Shown here in pieces: positions 36,715-50,848 of a DNA stretch of 64,000 nt (position 1 is its first letter; each line of letters begins with the position of its first letter). The position numbers and the translations under genes are program-made. The notes beneath the pieces were generated by a model that saw only the letters and a program-made list of their open reading frames with translations, had not been told where the DNA came from and did no database searches. This DNA is from Novosphingobium meiothermophilum (lineage in GTDB: Bacteria > Pseudomonadota > Alphaproteobacteria > Sphingomonadales > Sphingomonadaceae), in NCBI RefSeq assembly GCF_003171715.1, contig NZ_QGHL01000012.1:1-64000 (forward strand), read 5' to 3'.

Positions 36715-38472
36715 TTAGCCCTGCACGTGCGCGGGCGCCGAAGACTTTGCCTGGCTTGAGCGCACAACCCGGCCTGGGCGTTCACCGGTTGGCTGATCGT
36801 TGCGGCGGATGATCCGGCCGCTGACCAGCGTTGCGACGTATCCGGTCGCTTTCTGATCGAGCCGCCGCCCGCCGCCCGGCAGATCATGGCGCACCACAGG
36901 AGCGTGGAGTTGCAACCGGTCCATGGCGATGACATTGACATCGGCCTTCATGCCTTCGCGCAGAACCCCGCGGTCGGCAAGACCGATGACACTGGCGGGC
37001 CGGGCGGCGAGCATGTTCACGGCTTCGGCCAGCGAGAGGCGTTGGCCGATGCGATCGCGCACCCAGTAGGTCAGCATGAAGGTGGGATAGCTGGCATCGC
37101 AGATCGCGGCATAATGCGCTCCGCCGTCTCCAAGGCCGATCACGGTGTCTTCGCGCCGGACCAGATCGAGCAGGGCATCGAGCCGACCTTCATGGAAATT
37201 GCCAAGCGTGTTGAGGATCATGCCGCTGCCTTCGCGCTCCATCAGCACGTCATAGGCGACCTCTTCGGGGCGCATTCCCCTTGCTGCGGCAAGCGCGGCA
37301 ATGCTCGTTTCAGGGGCCGGTTCGTAATCGGGAGGATCCCCGAAAGGAAACATCCATTTCCAGTTGCGGGTGAGCATTGCGAGGGGGTGACCCTCTTGCG
37401 GGCTTTCCGCCAGAAGACGCGCGCGCATGGCAGGCTCGCGCAAACGGGCGAACTGGTCTTCGAGCGGAAGGTTGGCGAGCGGCTGATACGAGGGGCAGAG
37501 GCAGAATGGATGCGTTGAAAGCGCCCAGCCCGATATCATGCCGATCGGACGTGGCAGCACCTGCGGCCAGATCTCCAGTCCTTCGGCCCGCGCGCTGTCC
37601 GTCATCTTCAGGGCATCTTCCCATGTGCGCGGCCCGCTGTTCATCAGACCAAGCGTGAAAGTGGCCGGACGCCTGCTCTTTCGCGCCACTTCGATGAGGT
37701 TGGCCATTTCGGTTTGCCATGTCGCAAACGGCGCATCGAGCACTGCCTGAAACACGCCGGTTCGGGCATCGGTCATCGCGCTGGTAATGGCGACCAGTTC
37801 TTTCAGGTCCGCCCCAAAGGTGGGGATCATGTCGCCGGACTTGGTCCGATGGATGTTGAGCCGTGATGTGGCAAAGCCGATGGCGCCCGCGTCCAGGGCC
37901 TCGCGCGCAAGGCTGCGCATCTGTTCAAGGTCATTTTCCGTTGCGGCCTCGCGGGCAATGGCGCGCGCCCCCATGACCCAGACGCGCAGTGGGCTGTGCG
38001 GCAGGAAGCACGCCACGTCGATATCGCGCGGGCGCGCGGCCAGCGCATCGAGGTATTGCGGGAAGGTCTCCCAGTCCCATGGCAGGCCCTCCGCCATTAC
38101 CACACCGGGAATGTCCTCCACGCCCTCCATCAGCCTTATCAAGGCCTCGTGGTCTGTCGTGCGGCAGGGTGCAAACCCGACACCGCAATTGCCGAGAATG
38201 GCTGTCGTCACGCCATGCGAACTGCTGGGTGATAGCGTGTCCGACCAGATCGCCTGCCCATCGTAATGGGTGTGAATATCCACGAAGCCGGGCGTGACGA
38301 TGCAGCCCGTGGCATCGATGATTTCGGCCGCACTTCCGGCGAACCGGCCGCCGGCGTGGATGATGCGGTCGCCTGCGATGGCCAGATCGCCGCGGAAAGG
38401 CTCTGCGCCGGTGCCATCAACGACAAGGCCGCCCTGAATCAGAACATCAGCCCGGATTTGCGGTTCCGTCAT
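36715..38472 (-). CDS. Amidohydrolase, N-acyl-D-amino-acid deacylase-like
   Basis: A 585-residue metal-dependent amidohydrolase. ADVLIQGGLVVDGTG and IVTPGFVDIHTHYDGQ give the metal-binding H-x-H; GNCGVGFAP carries the cysteine ligand seen in D-aminoacylases, and GLGDGGAHYAAI the late Asp. Such proteins occur in many catabolic clusters where no D-amino acid is involved, so the substrate here is open (an amide or a cyclic ester/diketone). An operator CCGAACGGT-N5-ACCGTTCGG lies 25-47 bp upstream of the start, linking it to the tandem TetR. Confidence 0.82.
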   Translation of the reverse strand: MTEPQIRADVLIQGGLVVDGTGAEPFRGDLAIAGDRIIHAGGRFAGSAAEIIDATGCIVTPGFVDIHTHYDGQAIWSDTLSPSSSHGVTTAILGNCGVGFAPCRTTDHEALIRLMEGVEDIPGVVMAEGLPWDWETFPQYLDALAARPRDIDVACFLPHSPLRVWVMGARAIAREAATENDLEQMRSLAREALDAGAIGFATSRLNIHRTKSGDMIPTFGADLKELVAITSAMTDARTGVFQAVLDAPFATWQTEMANLIEVARKSRRPATFTLGLMNSGPRTWEDALKMTDSARAEGLEIWPQVLPRPIGMISGWALSTHPFCLCPSYQPLANLPLEDQFARLREPAMRARLLAESPQEGHPLAMLTRNWKWMFPFGDPPDYEPAPETSIAALAAARGMRPEEVAYDVLMEREGSGMILNTLGNFHEGRLDALLDLVRREDTVIGLGDGGAHYAAICDASYPTFMLTYWVRDRIGQRLSLAEAVNMLAARPASVIGLADRGVLREGMKADVNVIAMDRLQLHAPVVRHDLPGGGRRLDQKATGYVATLVSGRIIRRNDQPTGERPGRVVRSSQAKSSAPAHVQG

Positions 38473-38496: not shown

Positions 38497-38519
38497 CCGA
38501 ACGGTATCAGACCGTTCGG
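38497..38519. promoter_or_regulatory. Operator CCGAACGGT-N5-ACCGTTCGG, site A
   Basis: A perfect 9-5-9 inverted repeat (spacer ATCAG) just before the amidohydrolase gene. The same arms form the core of the 45-bp palindrome at 48342-48386, next to the tandem TetR gene. Confidence 0.7.
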
Positions 38520-38532
38520 TTTGTGCAAGAGG

Positions 38533-39432
38533 CTATCGTCCCGGACCGGCGATGGCCTGCACCCTGGCGCCACCTGCGGATTGACGGAAGGCGCGGGGCG
38601 TCTGCCCGGTTGACCGGCGGAAGGCGCGGGTAAAGCTGTTGGGGTGGGAAAAGCCGCAAGCCTGCGCCACCGCCTTCACCGGCAGGTCGCCTTGTTCGAG
38701 CAGTGCCTTGGCCTTCTCGATCCGGGTCGTTTCCATGTAATCAGCCACTGTCTTCCCGGTCAGTGCAAGGAACTGTCGCTGAAGATGGCGCGGGCTGATA
38801 CCGCATAGGGCGGCAAGCTCTGCCACGGACGGCAGAAGACCCGGCCGGGCAAGCCTTTCACGGATCCGCCGAAACTGCCATGGCGCCAGCCGCCCTGAAA
38901 CCGATGGACGAACCTGCTGGCCAATCACGCGTTCGAGTTCGATTGCCGCCAGACCGATCAGCGCAGCCACAGCGTCCTCGCGGCGGTCGGTTGTGTTCTC
39001 CAGCTCGCGCTGCATCAGCCCCAGCAACAGGCGCAAGGTTTCGCTGCCAATCGCGAGCAACCCTTGAAGGAAAGCAAGGTTGGGCTTGGGGCGCAGGGCC
39101 ATCAAGTGCGCCGTCTGCTCCGGTCCGAACACGCAGCGCACCACACGGATACGCCCGCCTTCCGATCGGCCCGCAACCAGCACACCCGGCCAGCGCACGA
39201 ACAGGGTGCCCATGAAGCAGCGCCGCTGCTCGTCGATTTCCGGAAAACAGGCCGATGCGTTGGCCGAGGTGGGCGGGACCGACATTTCGATCATCAGATC
39301 GCTTTCCCGCCGCGTGAAGTCGAGCATGTCCGGCCAGTGCCACTCGACCGTTTCGGCCCGGCCGAGGGGCGTTTTCACGCATGTCAGGATGCGGGGCGCA
39401 TAGTCGATCATGGTTCGCCGTCCCGGTGCCAT
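38533..39432 (-). CDS. AraC-family transcriptional regulator
   Basis: A 299-residue regulator with two C-terminal helix-turn-helices: SVAELAALCGISPRHLQRQF and PVKAVAQACGFSHPNSFTRAFRRSTGQTP, the AraC signature. The N-terminal half is a sensor domain without recognisable features. Start at 39432 or ATG 39411. It follows the GMC-ADH operon on the same strand and may control it. Confidence 0.9.
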   Translation of the reverse strand: MAPGRRTMIDYAPRILTCVKTPLGRAETVEWHWPDMLDFTRRESDLMIEMSVPPTSANASACFPEIDEQRRCFMGTLFVRWPGVLVAGRSEGGRIRVVRCVFGPEQTAHLMALRPKPNLAFLQGLLAIGSETLRLLLGLMQRELENTTDRREDAVAALIGLAAIELERVIGQQVRPSVSGRLAPWQFRRIRERLARPGLLPSVAELAALCGISPRHLQRQFLALTGKTVADYMETTRIEKAKALLEQGDLPVKAVAQACGFSHPNSFTRAFRRSTGQTPRAFRQSAGGARVQAIAGPGR

Positions 39433-46673: not shown

Positions 46674-47336
46674 TCAGCCAGAATGGGCGAAGTAATCTTC
46701 GATGATCTTTTCCGGCATGCCGATGCCGCGCAGGCAGAACCATGTTGCCTGACGGACCAGATCGTCCCCTTCAAGGCCGTAAGGGCGCGCCGCAGGGGGC
46801 AAGGCCATGATGGCGGTAATCATTGTGCCGACATGCTCGATGAACATGGCTGCGGCGGGAACATCCAGTGCCATTCCGACCAGACCGCCCTCCGCGCGCG
46901 CGGATGCATAGGCAGCATTCATGGCCGTTGCATTGCGCCTCTGGGAGCGGCGGTAGATCAGGCTTGCGTAGGAGCCGTCGCCGGCAAGGCTGGCGAGGGT
47001 CATGCGGTGGATGTCGCAGCGCTCGGCATCGGCCGCATCGGCAACACAGGCATGGATGAAGCCGTGGATCGCCTCGGCAAGGCCGCGCGCGCCTTCTGCG
47101 TGGATGCCCTGCTCGCGCCAGCGTTCGTCCTGTTCAAGGAACACCTGCCGCAGCACCGCGCGATAAAGCGCCAGCTTGCTGGGGAAATGACGATAGACAA
47201 GCGCTTCGGACACGCCCGCTTCGCGGGCGATCTGCAAGGTCTTGGCGCCATCATAGCCATGCCGCGAAAACACCCGCCTTGCAGCCATCACAATCTGCGT
47301 GCGCCGTTCGGTTCCGGGGATGCGCTTGCGTGTCAT
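46674..47336 (-). CDS. TetR-family regulator, candidate for the GTAAG regulon
   Basis: A 220-residue TetR protein: IVMAARRVFSRHGYDGAKTLQIAREAGVSEALVYRHFPSK gives the HTH (about 30-50). The start is the ATG at 47336, with GTGAGTG upstream; a GTG at 47342 is also in frame. An operator of the GTAAG family overlaps its own start region and another lies just behind it before the AKR gene, the usual arrangement for an autoregulated repressor. This makes it the leading candidate to bind the family (inference). Confidence 0.88.
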   Translation of the reverse strand: MTRKRIPGTERRTQIVMAARRVFSRHGYDGAKTLQIAREAGVSEALVYRHFPSKLALYRAVLRQVFLEQDERWREQGIHAEGARGLAEAIHGFIHACVADAADAERCDIHRMTLASLAGDGSYASLIYRRSQRRNATAMNAAYASARAEGGLVGMALDVPAAAMFIEHVGTMITAIMALPPAARPYGLEGDDLVRQATWFCLRGIGMPEKIIEDYFAHSG

Positions 47337-47352
47337 GAACACTCACTTATGT
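47333..47352. promoter_or_regulatory. TetR-type operator, GTAAG family, site 5
   Basis: On the minus strand ACATAAG-N6-TTCATGA. The left arm fits; the right arm overlaps the start codon of the TetR gene. Confidence 0.45.
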
Positions 47353-47465
47353 CTGCACCCGTATCTGTCAACCGCGGTCTGGCGGCGCCGGGGCAAATGC
47401 GGTGGACAAGCGCGCCACTTACCAGCGGTCAGCGGGACCAGCCCTTGCGGGGGGGGGGCGGTGGA

Positions 47466-48320
47466 TCAGCAGGGCATGGCCTTTGCACACAAGGCGGAAG
47501 CGGGCGCTTTGCCTGCCCAGAACGCGCCTTCGATATCGGTGTCAACGTCCACCGCTCCGCGCACCCCCAGCGCGGCGCGGGCTTCGGCCAGCGGCAAGTG
47601 AAAGAAGGGCTCCAGCTTCTTCATGAACAGTGCGTCGCTTGCCTTGCCCACGGTGATCCCGCGCTGAATCGCATCGGTGCAGGTATCCCACACCTGAGGG
47701 TAATGGAGCAGCGTTCGCACGGTATATCGCAATGATCCGAAAATCTGGATCAGGCTGAGTTCCGCGGCCAGTTCAGGATCGTGGATGAACTTGAACACAT
47801 TGGTCAGCCGATACCAGTAGGGCACCAGTTCACCCATGAAGTTGAACCCGCCGCCGCACAGGATATGCTCGAAATCATGCGTCTGCCCTGAACGCAGATT
47901 ATAGAACTCAAGCTGGCTTTTCGGCTCCCGCCAGGGTGTTATCTGGATCTCGTAATTTCCTTCGGTGATCCACTGATAGAAGATTCCGCCAAGGGTGCCC
48001 GGTTCATAGTCGGCAAAATCCTCTATCGTGTAGGTCGAGTAGAAGCCTTCCGACAGCCAGGCGTCGAGTTCCGGATTGATCTTGCGCTCGGCCATGAACA
48101 TGGCCTCGATCGCGTCATGATCGCGCAGTTCATCAAGGATCGGCAGGAATGCATACATTTCCGCCGGGGGCGGCAGATCGGGCCCATTGCGGCGCAACAG
48201 GATCATTGCCAGCCAGTCGCGAAGGCGCGGGTTGTTGAGATACTTGGATGAGGAAACCAGCACGCTTGATGGGGTTTCCACAGGCATGATGCCCCGCGCG
48301 AGATAGGGAATGTCAGTCAC
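47466..48320 (-). CDS. Coq4-like protein (putative non-heme metal enzyme)
   Basis: A 284-residue protein with the Coq4 metal motif H-D-x-x-H-(x11)-E: HDFEH, then eleven residues, then the E of MGELV. Coq4 acts in ubiquinone synthesis at the C1 position of the ring (decarboxylation/hydroxylation). Here the gene stands among catabolic genes and under a palindromic operator, so it is probably a paralogue that acts on a degradation intermediate. No membrane segments. It starts at GTG 48320 after AAAGGACTC and is divergent from the tandem TetR gene. Confidence 0.68.
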   Translation of the reverse strand: MTDIPYLARGIMPVETPSSVLVSSSKYLNNPRLRDWLAMILLRRNGPDLPPPAEMYAFLPILDELRDHDAIEAMFMAERKINPELDAWLSEGFYSTYTIEDFADYEPGTLGGIFYQWITEGNYEIQITPWREPKSQLEFYNLRSGQTHDFEHILCGGGFNFMGELVPYWYRLTNVFKFIHDPELAAELSLIQIFGSLRYTVRTLLHYPQVWDTCTDAIQRGITVGKASDALFMKKLEPFFHLPLAEARAALGVRGAVDVDTDIEGAFWAGKAPASALCAKAMPC

Positions 48321-48341
48321 GGCGAGTCCTTTGAGGCTATC

Positions 48342-48386
48342 CTTGCACCAATCCGAACGGTATCGAACCGTTCGGATTGGTGCAAG
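48342..48386. promoter_or_regulatory. Operator CCGAACGGT-N5-ACCGTTCGG, site B, inside a 45-bp perfect palindrome
   Basis: Arms of 20 bp (left CTTGCACCAATCCGAACGGT at 48342-48361, right its exact complement at 48367-48386) flank the spacer ATCGA. The inner 9-5-9 core equals site A at 38497-38519. It lies in the 181-bp divergent promoter region between the Coq4-like and tandem TetR genes. Confidence 0.8.
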
Positions 48387-48501
48387 CGTTTCGCGTCAGG
48401 CTTTGCAAGGTGGCGTGGAACGTGCTGTCTGGCGCGTCGGCGCGCAGAAGCGAAGCATACGGAAGGGGTGCGACAATCCGGCGCGGTGTTATAGGGATCG
48501 C

Positions 48502-49749
48502 ATGGACCAGACAGGAAATGGCGCTGCGACTGGCAGGCTAACACCTTCGCGCATCTCGCACCTGCTTGGCGTGGCGCGGGACGTGTTCATGGCCAGCGGC
48601 TTTGATGCGGCGAGCATCGATGGCATTGCCCGACAATCCGGCGTGAGCAAGGAGACCATCTACCGGCACTTTTCGGACAAGCAGGCCCTGTTTCGCGCCG
48701 CGCTCGACGATATGGGCGGGCGCTTCGTCAGTCATGTGGAAAGCCTGCCTCGCGCGGGAATGGCGCGGGAAGATGTGCTTGCCGGTCTGGCGCGGGCCAT
48801 ACTCGATGCGGCGTGCGATGGCGGGCTGCTTGCGCCCCTGTGGCTGGCCGCAGGAATTGGTGAGCGAATGCCCGCCTTCGCAGCAGAACTGCACCATCGT
48901 CAGACCCGAAGCATGGAGCCGGTGCGCAACGCGCTCGGCGCGCTGGCTGAAGGCAGCAATCGGGAACTCGTCCCCACTATTGAGGATGCGCTTGATCTGG
49001 GGTCCCTTGCGGTTGGCGGTTCGGCGCTGCTGATGGGCTTCTCCCCTCCGGCGGAAGAATTGCGCCAGCGGCAATCGAGGCGTGTCGCAGCGCTTTTTGC
49101 CGGAGGCATTCTGGGCATGAAGGGCGAGCCGATGCCGTGTGTGACCGCAAGGGATGTCAGCCTTTGCGTCGAAGCTGAAATACCCCCCCGTCCTGCGCAT
49201 CTGCGCCGGCTGATCGATGTGGCAGCCGACCATTTCCTTCGCGAAGGTTACGAAGCGGCCAGTCTCGGCGCCATCGGCAGCGAGGCGCGGGTAGGGCGTG
49301 GCACGCTTTATCGGCATTTCCAGAGCAAGACGGGGCTGTTTGACGCAGTGGTCCGCGATCTTGCGCGTTCGCTCGCAATGATGGCAGCGCCGCCCCGGCT
49401 GCACGATGACGAAAGCCTCGGTCCGTTCATGGCTGATGCCGCCGCGCATCTTGCATCTCCCGCCTCGGTCCGCCTGCACCGCATGATCATTGCAGCATCG
49501 CGGTGTCATCCGGCCCTTGCGCGACATGTGCATGACATTGTGCGCGAACCGTGGATCGGTCCGCTGGCGCAGTGGATCGCCCACCGCACCAGCCATGCCG
49601 ATGCACGCTGGCTGGCGCGGCAGGGGATCATTCTTGCCATGCAGGGCAACCGCGCGATTGCCGCAGGCCAAGATCTGCCGACGGCCGTATTGCACGCACA
49701 CGGGCGGCGCGCGGCAAATCGCCTCTTGCGAGGTCTGTTCCTCGACTGA
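48502..49749 (+). CDS. Single-chain tandem TetR regulator (two TetR units fused)
   Basis: A 415-residue protein with two full TetR units in one frame. Unit 1: HTH at about 40-61 (IDGIARQSGVSKETIYRHFS) and ligand domain to about 205. Unit 2: HTH at about 255-277 (LGAIGSEARVGRGTLYRHFQ) and a second ligand domain to the end. Normal TetR proteins are about 200 residues and dimerise; this one can form its own two-headed dimer. There is no stop or frame break between the units, and they are diverged in sequence, so it is not a recent duplication. ATG 48502 follows AGGGATC. The palindrome at 48342 is its likely target. Confidence 0.85.
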   Translation: MDQTGNGAATGRLTPSRISHLLGVARDVFMASGFDAASIDGIARQSGVSKETIYRHFSDKQALFRAALDDMGGRFVSHVESLPRAGMAREDVLAGLARAILDAACDGGLLAPLWLAAGIGERMPAFAAELHHRQTRSMEPVRNALGALAEGSNRELVPTIEDALDLGSLAVGGSALLMGFSPPAEELRQRQSRRVAALFAGGILGMKGEPMPCVTARDVSLCVEAEIPPRPAHLRRLIDVAADHFLREGYEAASLGAIGSEARVGRGTLYRHFQSKTGLFDAVVRDLARSLAMMAAPPRLHDDESLGPFMADAAAHLASPASVRLHRMIIAASRCHPALARHVHDIVREPWIGPLAQWIAHRTSHADARWLARQGIILAMQGNRAIAAGQDLPTAVLHAHGRRAANRLLRGLFLD

Positions 49750-49756
49750 CAACGTG

Positions 49757-49784
49757 GAGAGAGGGGGTGGCGACGCCCTCTCTC
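49757..49784. terminator. Hairpin between convergent tandem TetR and next gene
   Basis: GAGAGAGGG / CCCTCTCTC, a perfect 9-bp stem with a 10-nt loop. No long T-run; may serve both strands. Confidence 0.5.
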
Positions 49785-49795
49785 AGTCAATTCTC

Positions 49796-50848
49796 TCAGG
49801 CAGCCTCGCGCTCAACCGGTTCCGGGGGGAAGATCGTCGGCTGTCCGGCGTCATAGACGCGTGTGAGCAGGCCGATGAAGGCCGTATCCGTCAGCGGATC
49901 GGCGGGCGTTGCGAAAGACTCGCCGCGCTTGCGCAGGTCAGAGAGGATGATGTCGAAGATCATCTCGTGGGTCAGGTCATCCGTATGGTCATGGGCGCGC
50001 TTGAACTCGGCCATGTCCATGAAGATGTCGGCCCCCCAGTGCACGAGAAAGCGGAACTCCTCCTCAGGAATCTTCTGGATGACCTTGCTGTCGGTGGTGA
50101 TCCGCCATCCGCCAGCGTTTTCGGGGTCTGCTTCCATCATGGAATGAATGGCCAGTCCTTCCGGGCGACGCATTGCCGCCGGTCCGTTCGTTTCGGCAGT
50201 GTGGAACATCTTCTCGTTCTCGACCACGACCGCGCGGCCCCACATCGGCGCATTGATCTGCTTGGGCTCCTCGAACGGCCCGTCCGGCCAGTAGGTAAAG
50301 CCGCCGCCGATCCGGCCCTTGTAATACCAGGTGATGACTTGTGCCTTCTTGGCGCGCCAGCGTTCGAAAAGATTGGACTTCACCATGATGTTCATAAGCC
50401 AGATGGGCGTGGTCTGCATGGATACCCCCCGGAACCGGGTGGCATCGACATGGGGACTGCCCCCGCCGGAGCACGGGCCCTGAATGTTGAACAGCATGTT
50501 CTCCGGCGTTGCATATTTCGCGCCCCAGTAGTCCCGCACCAGGGCGAGAAACCGGCTGTTGAAGAAGCAATCCTCGATTTCGGGATAGAACGGGGTGGAT
50601 GCCGTGCCGAAGTATCCGCGGAAAACCGGAGACAGGAACATGTCCCACGTGGGCTTGAAGCCTTCGGGAACCGAGCCTGAGGTCGTCGCGACGACTTCCT
50701 CAGGTGATTTGAAGTGCTGGGCGAGGATAAGCGACCATGGGCCATTGCGGCGCACGATGTCGAGCATCCGGGCGTGCTGATCGGGCGTGAAGGCATCCTC
50801 GATGATGCGCGGCGGAGCGACAGGACGGAAAATGGATGCGTTGGCCAT
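49796..50848 (-). CDS. Unassigned protein, possibly an Fe(II)/2-oxoglutarate oxygenase-like fold
   Basis: A 350-residue soluble protein without signal peptide. SPHVDATRFRG offers an H-x-D pair and KMFHTAETNGP or LAIHSMME a distal His, with a following arginine-rich segment: the order expected for a phytanoyl-CoA-hydroxylase-like Fe(II) oxygenase. I cannot confirm the fold from sequence alone. CGGAGAGAG precedes the ATG, and a GTAAG-family operator lies 47-66 bp upstream, so it belongs to that regulon. Confidence 0.55.
   Translation of the reverse strand: MANASIFRPVAPPRIIEDAFTPDQHARMLDIVRRNGPWSLILAQHFKSPEEVVATTSGSVPEGFKPTWDMFLSPVFRGYFGTASTPFYPEIEDCFFNSRFLALVRDYWGAKYATPENMLFNIQGPCSGGGSPHVDATRFRGVSMQTTPIWLMNIMVKSNLFERWRAKKAQVITWYYKGRIGGGFTYWPDGPFEEPKQINAPMWGRAVVVENEKMFHTAETNGPAAMRRPEGLAIHSMMEADPENAGGWRITTDSKVIQKIPEEEFRFLVHWGADIFMDMAEFKRAHDHTDDLTHEMIFDIILSDLRKRGESFATPADPLTDTAFIGLLTRVYDAGQPTIFPPEPVEREAA

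Follow-up and report, generated by a model that had tools for sequence, protein, structure and literature searches.

The gene at 48502 to 49749 of the window, by which we mean the whole stretch of 64,000 nucleotides analysed here, encodes a tandem TetR-family regulator (P0001) that we read, with a probability of roughly 0.7, as a natural single-chain pseudo-dimer which would repress a small regulon by blocking the promoters of a Coq4-like gene and an amidohydrolase gene (Table 1). The original prediction had implied that the fused architecture itself was novel; this part does not hold, as double TetR repressors have been described before. The double-TFR architecture is already known, and the new part is the DNA side, i.e. 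the near-palindromic operator, the regulon and the sphingomonad lineage. No paper on a sphingomonad tandem TetR, its operator or its regulon was found in a literature search that was noisy and covered top-ranked matches only. In the records listed, relatives carry only generic names ('TetR/AcrR family', 'TetR family', 'hypothetical protein'), and operator and target predictions are gained here for this regulator.

Table 1. Features of the tandem TetR locus and of the second predicted target (positions in the window)
Feature	Position	Strand	Basis
Tandem (double) TetR-family regulator gene, 415 aa (P0001)	48502..49749	+	open frame, two TetR_N, relatives, fold
Unit 1 DNA-binding domain, helix GVSKETIYR	48562..48702	+	TetR_N 57.6 bits; cut-off 24
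Unit 2 DNA-binding domain, helix VGRGTLYRHF	49210..49350	+	TetR_N 56.0 bits; cut-off 24
Candidate operator 1, CCGAACGGTATCGAACCGTTCGG	48353..48375		pattern match, conserved before tandem genes
Long palindrome around operator 1	48342..48386		20-base arms 100% complementary, 5-base centre
Candidate operator 2, CCGAACGGTATCAGACCGTTCGG	38497..38519		pattern match; before amidohydrolase gene
Putative promoter of divergent gene	48357..48385	-	position-wise conservation over 27 sites
Putative own promoter of tandem gene	48467..48495	+	TATAG block upstream
Coq4-like gene, divergent from tandem gene, predicted main target	47466..48320	-	Pfam, operator before it
Amidohydrolase gene (Amidohydro_3), predicted second target	36715..38472	-	Pfam; operator 24 bases upstream
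Single-unit TetR regulator gene, rival reader judged unlikely	46674..47342	-	Pfam, orthologue counts

P0001 is a conserved chain of two diverged TetR units

Translation of 48502-49749 on the forward strand gave 415 codons free of stops, and Pfam TetR_N matched the product in two stretches with 102.9 bits in sum (cut-off 24), which bears out the claim that two TetR units lie in a single 415-residue chain. The longest open frame already begins at 48310. However, the ATG at 48502 is likely the true start codon, because the operator falls within the extension from 48310 and a conserved promoter-like block ends right before this ATG. With two TetR_N matches above the curated cut-off and an all-helical TetR fold in each unit, P0001 is a member of the TetR family, and its conserved chain of two complete TetR units that are not identical gives it the architecture of a double TFR. 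BLASTP aligned units 1 and 2 at 38% identity across 58 residues of their DNA-binding parts and found no real similarity beyond.

We searched with P0001 in 396 genomes of the order, 195 of the genus and 397 of the family, draws that overlap, as well as in plasmids (E <= 1e-20), and with alignment A1 in the genome_contigs collection, of which the best 80 of 146 loci were used. Thirty-one stretches were sorted into 16 distinct full-length ones (the window and 15 others), six duplicates, one distant tandem (L128) and eight without two matches to the strict motif, these being six distant tandems and the contig-end pieces L135 and L137. The family search thus retrieved the same two-unit architecture in 15 distinct full-length sphingomonad relatives, which are 37-58% identical to P0001. 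The recognition helices GVSKETIYR of unit 1 and VGRGTLYRHF of unit 2 were unchanged in 16/16 proteins, the window included. Loci L054-L122 of genome_contigs held no two-unit frame of at least 300 residues, and one scan of viral contigs confirmed no relative of P0001. Tandem proteins of this type are rare, carriers making up 7/195 genus genomes; in the family carrier G682 the gene is split over two contigs. At E <= 1e-20, 13 plasmid records contained relatives, every one from Sphingobium or Novosphingobium, and one annotated fused relative is WP_011906953.1 (420 aa). The tandem gene sits on large plasmids (L192, L194, L195), including pNL2 of N. aromaticivorans (L192), and one plasmid with the gene, from S. 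herbicidovorans, is typed as conjugative.

A tree was built from N-units and C-units (24 each) and 46 of the 104 single TetRs found, six of them from the own genome and 40 drawn at random. All C-units fell into one group (support 87/87), together with row L137 labelled single, and the N-units into two groups, one of which included row L053, likewise labelled single; both rows are contig-edge pieces of G682 and not genuine single TetRs. Deep branches were weak and several single TetRs long-branched, and the tree gives no indication of the parent TetRs of the fusion. The position-wise grouping suggests that the fusion predates the spread of these tandem lineages. A recent duplication was ruled out, the units being 38% identical over just 58 residues and position-specific in the tree. 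Together with the 15 full-length relatives, this agrees with the earlier description of diverged units in an established protein.

Structural comparison with known TetR proteins

AlphaFold2 with P0001 and ten relatives gave an all-helical model (pLDDT 83.8, pTM 0.84), in which pLDDT fell below 50 at residues 1-13 and in the linker at residues 212-224. Residues 12-209 and 228-415 each aligned to TetR structures with Z about 11-13 among the matches listed, so that structure prediction, named as a check on the second unit in the original prediction, found a TetR fold there as well. Judged from the model, an internal (covalent) pseudo-dimer within one P0001 chain is likely, and it may be built around a shared four-helix core as in Mce3R. 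The best whole-chain PDB match was Mce3R (9b7y; Foldseek E 8.7e-07, TM 0.48/0.51). In VIA-align it gave Z 19.2 over 350 residues at an rmsd of 7.4, a large value that leaves the relative placement of the units unsettled, and was followed by single TetRs with Z 13.4 and below. By sequence, Mce3R ranked first with phmmer (E 3.5e-10) and fifth by profile, and it was the only two-unit chain recognised among the matches listed.

Mce3R (Rv1963c), the "double TFR" of Mycobacterium tuberculosis whose structure was solved in 2024, is described in the report on that structure as a single chain that makes up one asymmetric unit, in which two heads are combined with a single ligand-binding domain that has a composite pocket; the same source calls double TFRs an infrequent subfamily and cites a previous prediction of 204 in actinomycetes (PMC11667970). 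The two ligands considered possible in the original prediction are not supported. Mce3R is stated to repress its divergent neighbour (PMC3511530). It resembles P0001 in being a chain of about 400 residues with two non-identical TetR units. However, the operators given for it are a pair of asymmetric, non-palindromic 25-base sites separated by 53 bases (PMC11667970), whereas proteins of the P0001 type are accompanied by a conserved near-palindrome, a candidate operator, over a putative -35/-10 region. Identity between P0001 and Mce3R was 16-18% in structural alignments, and the target genes differ. The homodimeric TetRs MexL (8wrf), NalC (8ke8), FrrA (6g8h) and FasR (6o6n) matched each P0001 unit in sequence and fold, but these are two copies of one chain, whereas P0001 holds two diverged units per chain. 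Two TetR units per chain are also found in the engineered sc-rtTA, where they are described as preventing mixed dimers (PMC1797012). The latter is man-made, whereas P0001 is natural and its units are diverged.

A near-palindromic candidate operator accompanies the tandem gene

TetR-family repressors commonly have palindromic operators close to divergent promoters. The tandem genes of 16/16 proteins, the window included, were preceded by a near-palindrome CGAACGGT-N5-ACCGTTCG with 0-3 mismatches; among the 16 specified bases, 12 proteins had no mismatch, three had one and a single one (L047) had three. Shuffling the window 100 times gave 0.00 occurrences on average of the 23-base core when up to three mismatches were allowed. 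In the own genome the exact pattern is found at window positions 48354 and 38498, and no other match has fewer than three mismatches; with up to three allowed, the pattern was no better there than a reversed control (23 vs 29). Across the genus, the exact pattern was present in 7/195 genomes, which are the seven carriers, and in 0/188 others (Fisher p 5e-13, relatedness ignored); up to one mismatch admitted 22/195 genomes. No operator match was found in G186 and G437, whose sole tandem TetR is a distant one with different helices. The palindromes that had been named at 48342 and 38497 thus exist and are linked with the tandem protein.

We aligned 27 sites with the target gene on the left, 20 of them in tandem-gene loci and seven elsewhere, two being supplied by L053. 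Directly after the left half-site, A was found in 27/27 sites, with T at the mirror position in 2/27. To the right of the half-sites lies a CAAG block (C in 26, A in 27, A in 26 and G in 24 of 27 sites). The orientation of the operator centre can be explained by a -10 box alone. Departures from the half-site sequence concerned the left half only in seven sites, the right half only in one and both in one (p 0.07), and outside that count the later amidohydrolase sites L197 and L198 depart in both halves. This unevenness is suggestive, no more, of one strict and one lenient head. Extended mirrored arms of about 20-22 bases were seen in 4/27 sites (own, L014, L044 and L184); their outer parts differ in sequence between the own site, L014/L044 and L184, yet each remains mirrored. 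Such outer arms could stem from palindrome-correcting mutation or belong to a symmetric promoter working in both directions. A near-palindromic operator conserved across species together with two different heads is more unusual than the fusion itself.

Predicted targets and natural controls

The product of 47466-48320 scored 20.6 bits with Pfam Coq4, below the cut-off of 22.9, and its orthologue in N. aromaticivorans is annotated 'Coq4 family protein'. At E <= 1e-60, the Coq4-like gene was found in 40/194 genus genomes, that is, in the seven carriers, in 14 non-carriers whose orthologues are 74-91% identical and which were used for comparison, and in 19 others (<=63%) that were left out; in G450 the match spans residues 43-277 only. 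The operator precedes this gene in 7/7 genus carriers, with 0 mismatches each, vs 0/14 non-carriers: within 350 bases upstream, no operator was found in any of the 14, the best places having 5-7/16 mismatches, with relatedness ignored. In one non-carrier (G381, L219), a sequence with six mismatches occupies the place of the operator, with the ATCGA centre and GGCAAG kept and the half-sites mutated; it looks like a decayed operator copy.

Operator 2 recurs 10 kb from the tandem locus, ahead of the amidohydrolase gene. Operator-like sites were found before this gene in 7/7 genus carriers with 0-3 mismatches (0 in the own genome and L180, 1 in L181, L182 and L183, 2 in L198 and 3 in L197), as well as in the family carrier G223 (L185). 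The closest amidohydrolase gene of carrier G248 (56%) has no operator-like site, the best place showing five mismatches. In eight loci (L046-L049 and L188-L191), the amidohydrolase and Coq4-like genes both lie beside the tandem gene, and two annotated Sphingobium plasmids have TauD, Coq4-like (77%) and amidohydrolase (65%) genes in this order, each transcribed divergently to the tandem gene. The operator site therefore seems to move along with the amidohydrolase gene. In G585, a further exact operator stands before a second Coq4-like gene, 57% identical (L184 5403), and the regulon may be larger in this genome. An AraC-type regulator gene (38533-39432) directly precedes the amidohydrolase gene and operator 2 on the same strand.

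Putative promoters at the locus

Read on the opposite strand, the block conserved across the 27 sites is TTGNC-N17-TACCGT, plausibly the -35/-10 promoter of the left-hand gene. In the window, this corresponds to a putative -35 TTGCAC (48385-48380), a 17-base spacer and a -10 TACCGT (48362-48357) for the divergent gene, and operator 1 overlaps the spacer and the -10. A strict sigma-70 scan found no promoter at the operator region.

The tandem gene is preceded by a conserved promoter-like block of its own, GGTGCA-N17-TATAGC, which in the window reads GGTGCG, a 17-base spacer and TATAGG, with the ATG 6 bases on. The TATAG block was present upstream of the tandem gene in 16/18 loci (the window and 15/17 others), and in most of these, as judged by eye, TGCA-like bases lie 17 before the block and the ATG follows a few bases after it. 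It lies 27-115 bases beyond the operator and starts 48-136 bases past the operator start. This arrangement suggests a separate and possibly leaderless promoter for the tandem gene. Autoregulation is possible but not required, because the gene seems to have its own promoter at variable distance from the operator.

Proposed mode of action and competing explanations

We propose that the two units of P0001 are packed together as the subunits of a normal TetR dimer are, so that a single chain would place its two heads, 1 and 2, one on each half-site of CGAACGGTA-N4-ACCGTTCG. The operator covers the putative -10 and the -35/-10 spacer of the Coq4-like and amidohydrolase genes, and because of this overlap a bound repressor would keep RNA polymerase off these promoters. 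Release would be brought about by a ligand in a composite core pocket; this small molecule is probably a pathway substrate or intermediate.

Two different heads on a near-palindrome are unexpected, and a symmetric two-chain dimer fits the symmetry equally well. In such an assembly, two chains would pair unit 1 with 1' (or 2 with 2'), placing identical heads on the palindrome and leaving the remaining two free or on a second site. We consider this unlikely, if worth serious attention: the half-sites share one sequence although the two recognition helices differ, the palindrome is stretched to arms of about 20-22 bases in 4/27 sites, and a symmetric layout is considered in a figure of the Mce3R report (PMC11667970). 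However, for Mce3R itself that report describes an asymmetric single-chain layout in which both units are needed for DNA binding (PMC11667970). The AlphaFold2 monomer of P0001, moreover, is already packed (pTM 0.84), and both helices are equally invariant, therefore neither head looks idle. The single-chain pseudo-dimer remains our preferred reading.

Palindromes are the normal sites of homodimeric TetRs, and the single-unit TetR encoded at 46674-47342 belongs to the same cluster as the tandem gene, so that it could be the reader of the palindrome with the tandem protein as a bystander. We judged this very unlikely. At E <= 1e-40, no more than 9/16 carrier genomes had an orthologue of the single TetR (57-100%), three others having matches of <=44% and four none, and in G555 and G450 it is kept (82% and 80%) beside the Coq4-like gene while the tandem gene and the operator are both absent. 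Both genomes also retain the TonB receptor gene. In a DAP-seq study of 44 regulators of N. aromaticivorans, the orthologue of the single TetR, SARO_RS19415, is given with 19 peaks; the tandem protein, SARO_RS20420, is outside the 44 as listed there (PMC12352068).

Slighter still is the chance that the palindrome acts as a terminator or attenuator hairpin in the RNA, or that it arose as a side effect of palindrome-making mutation. The outer arms of the own site, L014/L044 and L184 are indeed perfectly mirrored despite differing sequences, but the core is conserved in sequence itself, beyond mere pairing, and the presence of the operator is tied to that of the tandem gene. Rfam gave no match in 47000-50000, and no terminator-like site was found in 48250-48600. 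Finally, a frameshift or assembly error joining two genes, which the original prediction had named as a possible source of the fusion, is refuted for practical purposes by the conserved fused frame, which runs without interruption in 15 distinct full-length relatives as well as in annotated plasmid records (such as WP_011906953.1, 420 aa), with N-units grouping with N-units and C-units with C-units in the tree.

Other tandem TetR proteins of sphingomonads

The proteins of L018, L019, L128, L129, L136 and L138-L141 also hold two TetR units per chain and are 25-33% identical to P0001. They share with it the clustering of N- and C-units by position but differ in their recognition helices, and their operators are different or unrecognised. 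L019, L138 and L139 have a near-palindrome of their own, GGAACTATACNGTATAGTTCC, 60 bases before the ATG assigned by script, with 0, 2 and 4 mismatches, respectively, the next best place there having 7-9; in other loci the best place had at least five, and L139 taken alone is weak. GAAC-N11-GTTC is common to the P0001-type operator and GGAACTATACNGTATAGTTCC. It is exact at -60 in L019 and L138 and has one mismatch in L139, with a chance expectation per 600 bases of 0.04 for exact matches and 0.39 with up to one mismatch. In L018, L128, L129, L136, L140 and L141, GAAC-N11-GTTC was not found within 600 bases upstream (at least two mismatches).

The asymmetric operators of Mce3R, the one structure-solved double TetR found, suggest that fusion frees the heads for different half-sites. 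The sphingomonad family is a candidate counter-example, with an asymmetric chain, an almost symmetric site, a small regulon and natural knock-outs. The chances are about even, in our view, that it represents a natural single-chain TetR class in which two diverged, non-interchangeable heads recognise the same half-site and a monomer reads a near-palindrome and could gain direction, with the GAAC-N11-GTTC geometry in at least two sphingomonad lineages, unlike Mce3R. Why two different heads should be kept if one half-site sequence serves both is a testable question; they might give direction on the promoter, let one chain bind without forming mixed dimers, or make different ligand contacts.

The hosts of L047, L049 and L052 are Croceicoccus estronivorus, Novosphingobium sp. 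Chol11 and Sphingobium estronivorans, names that by themselves give a hint that the ligand of the tandem protein might be steroid-related.
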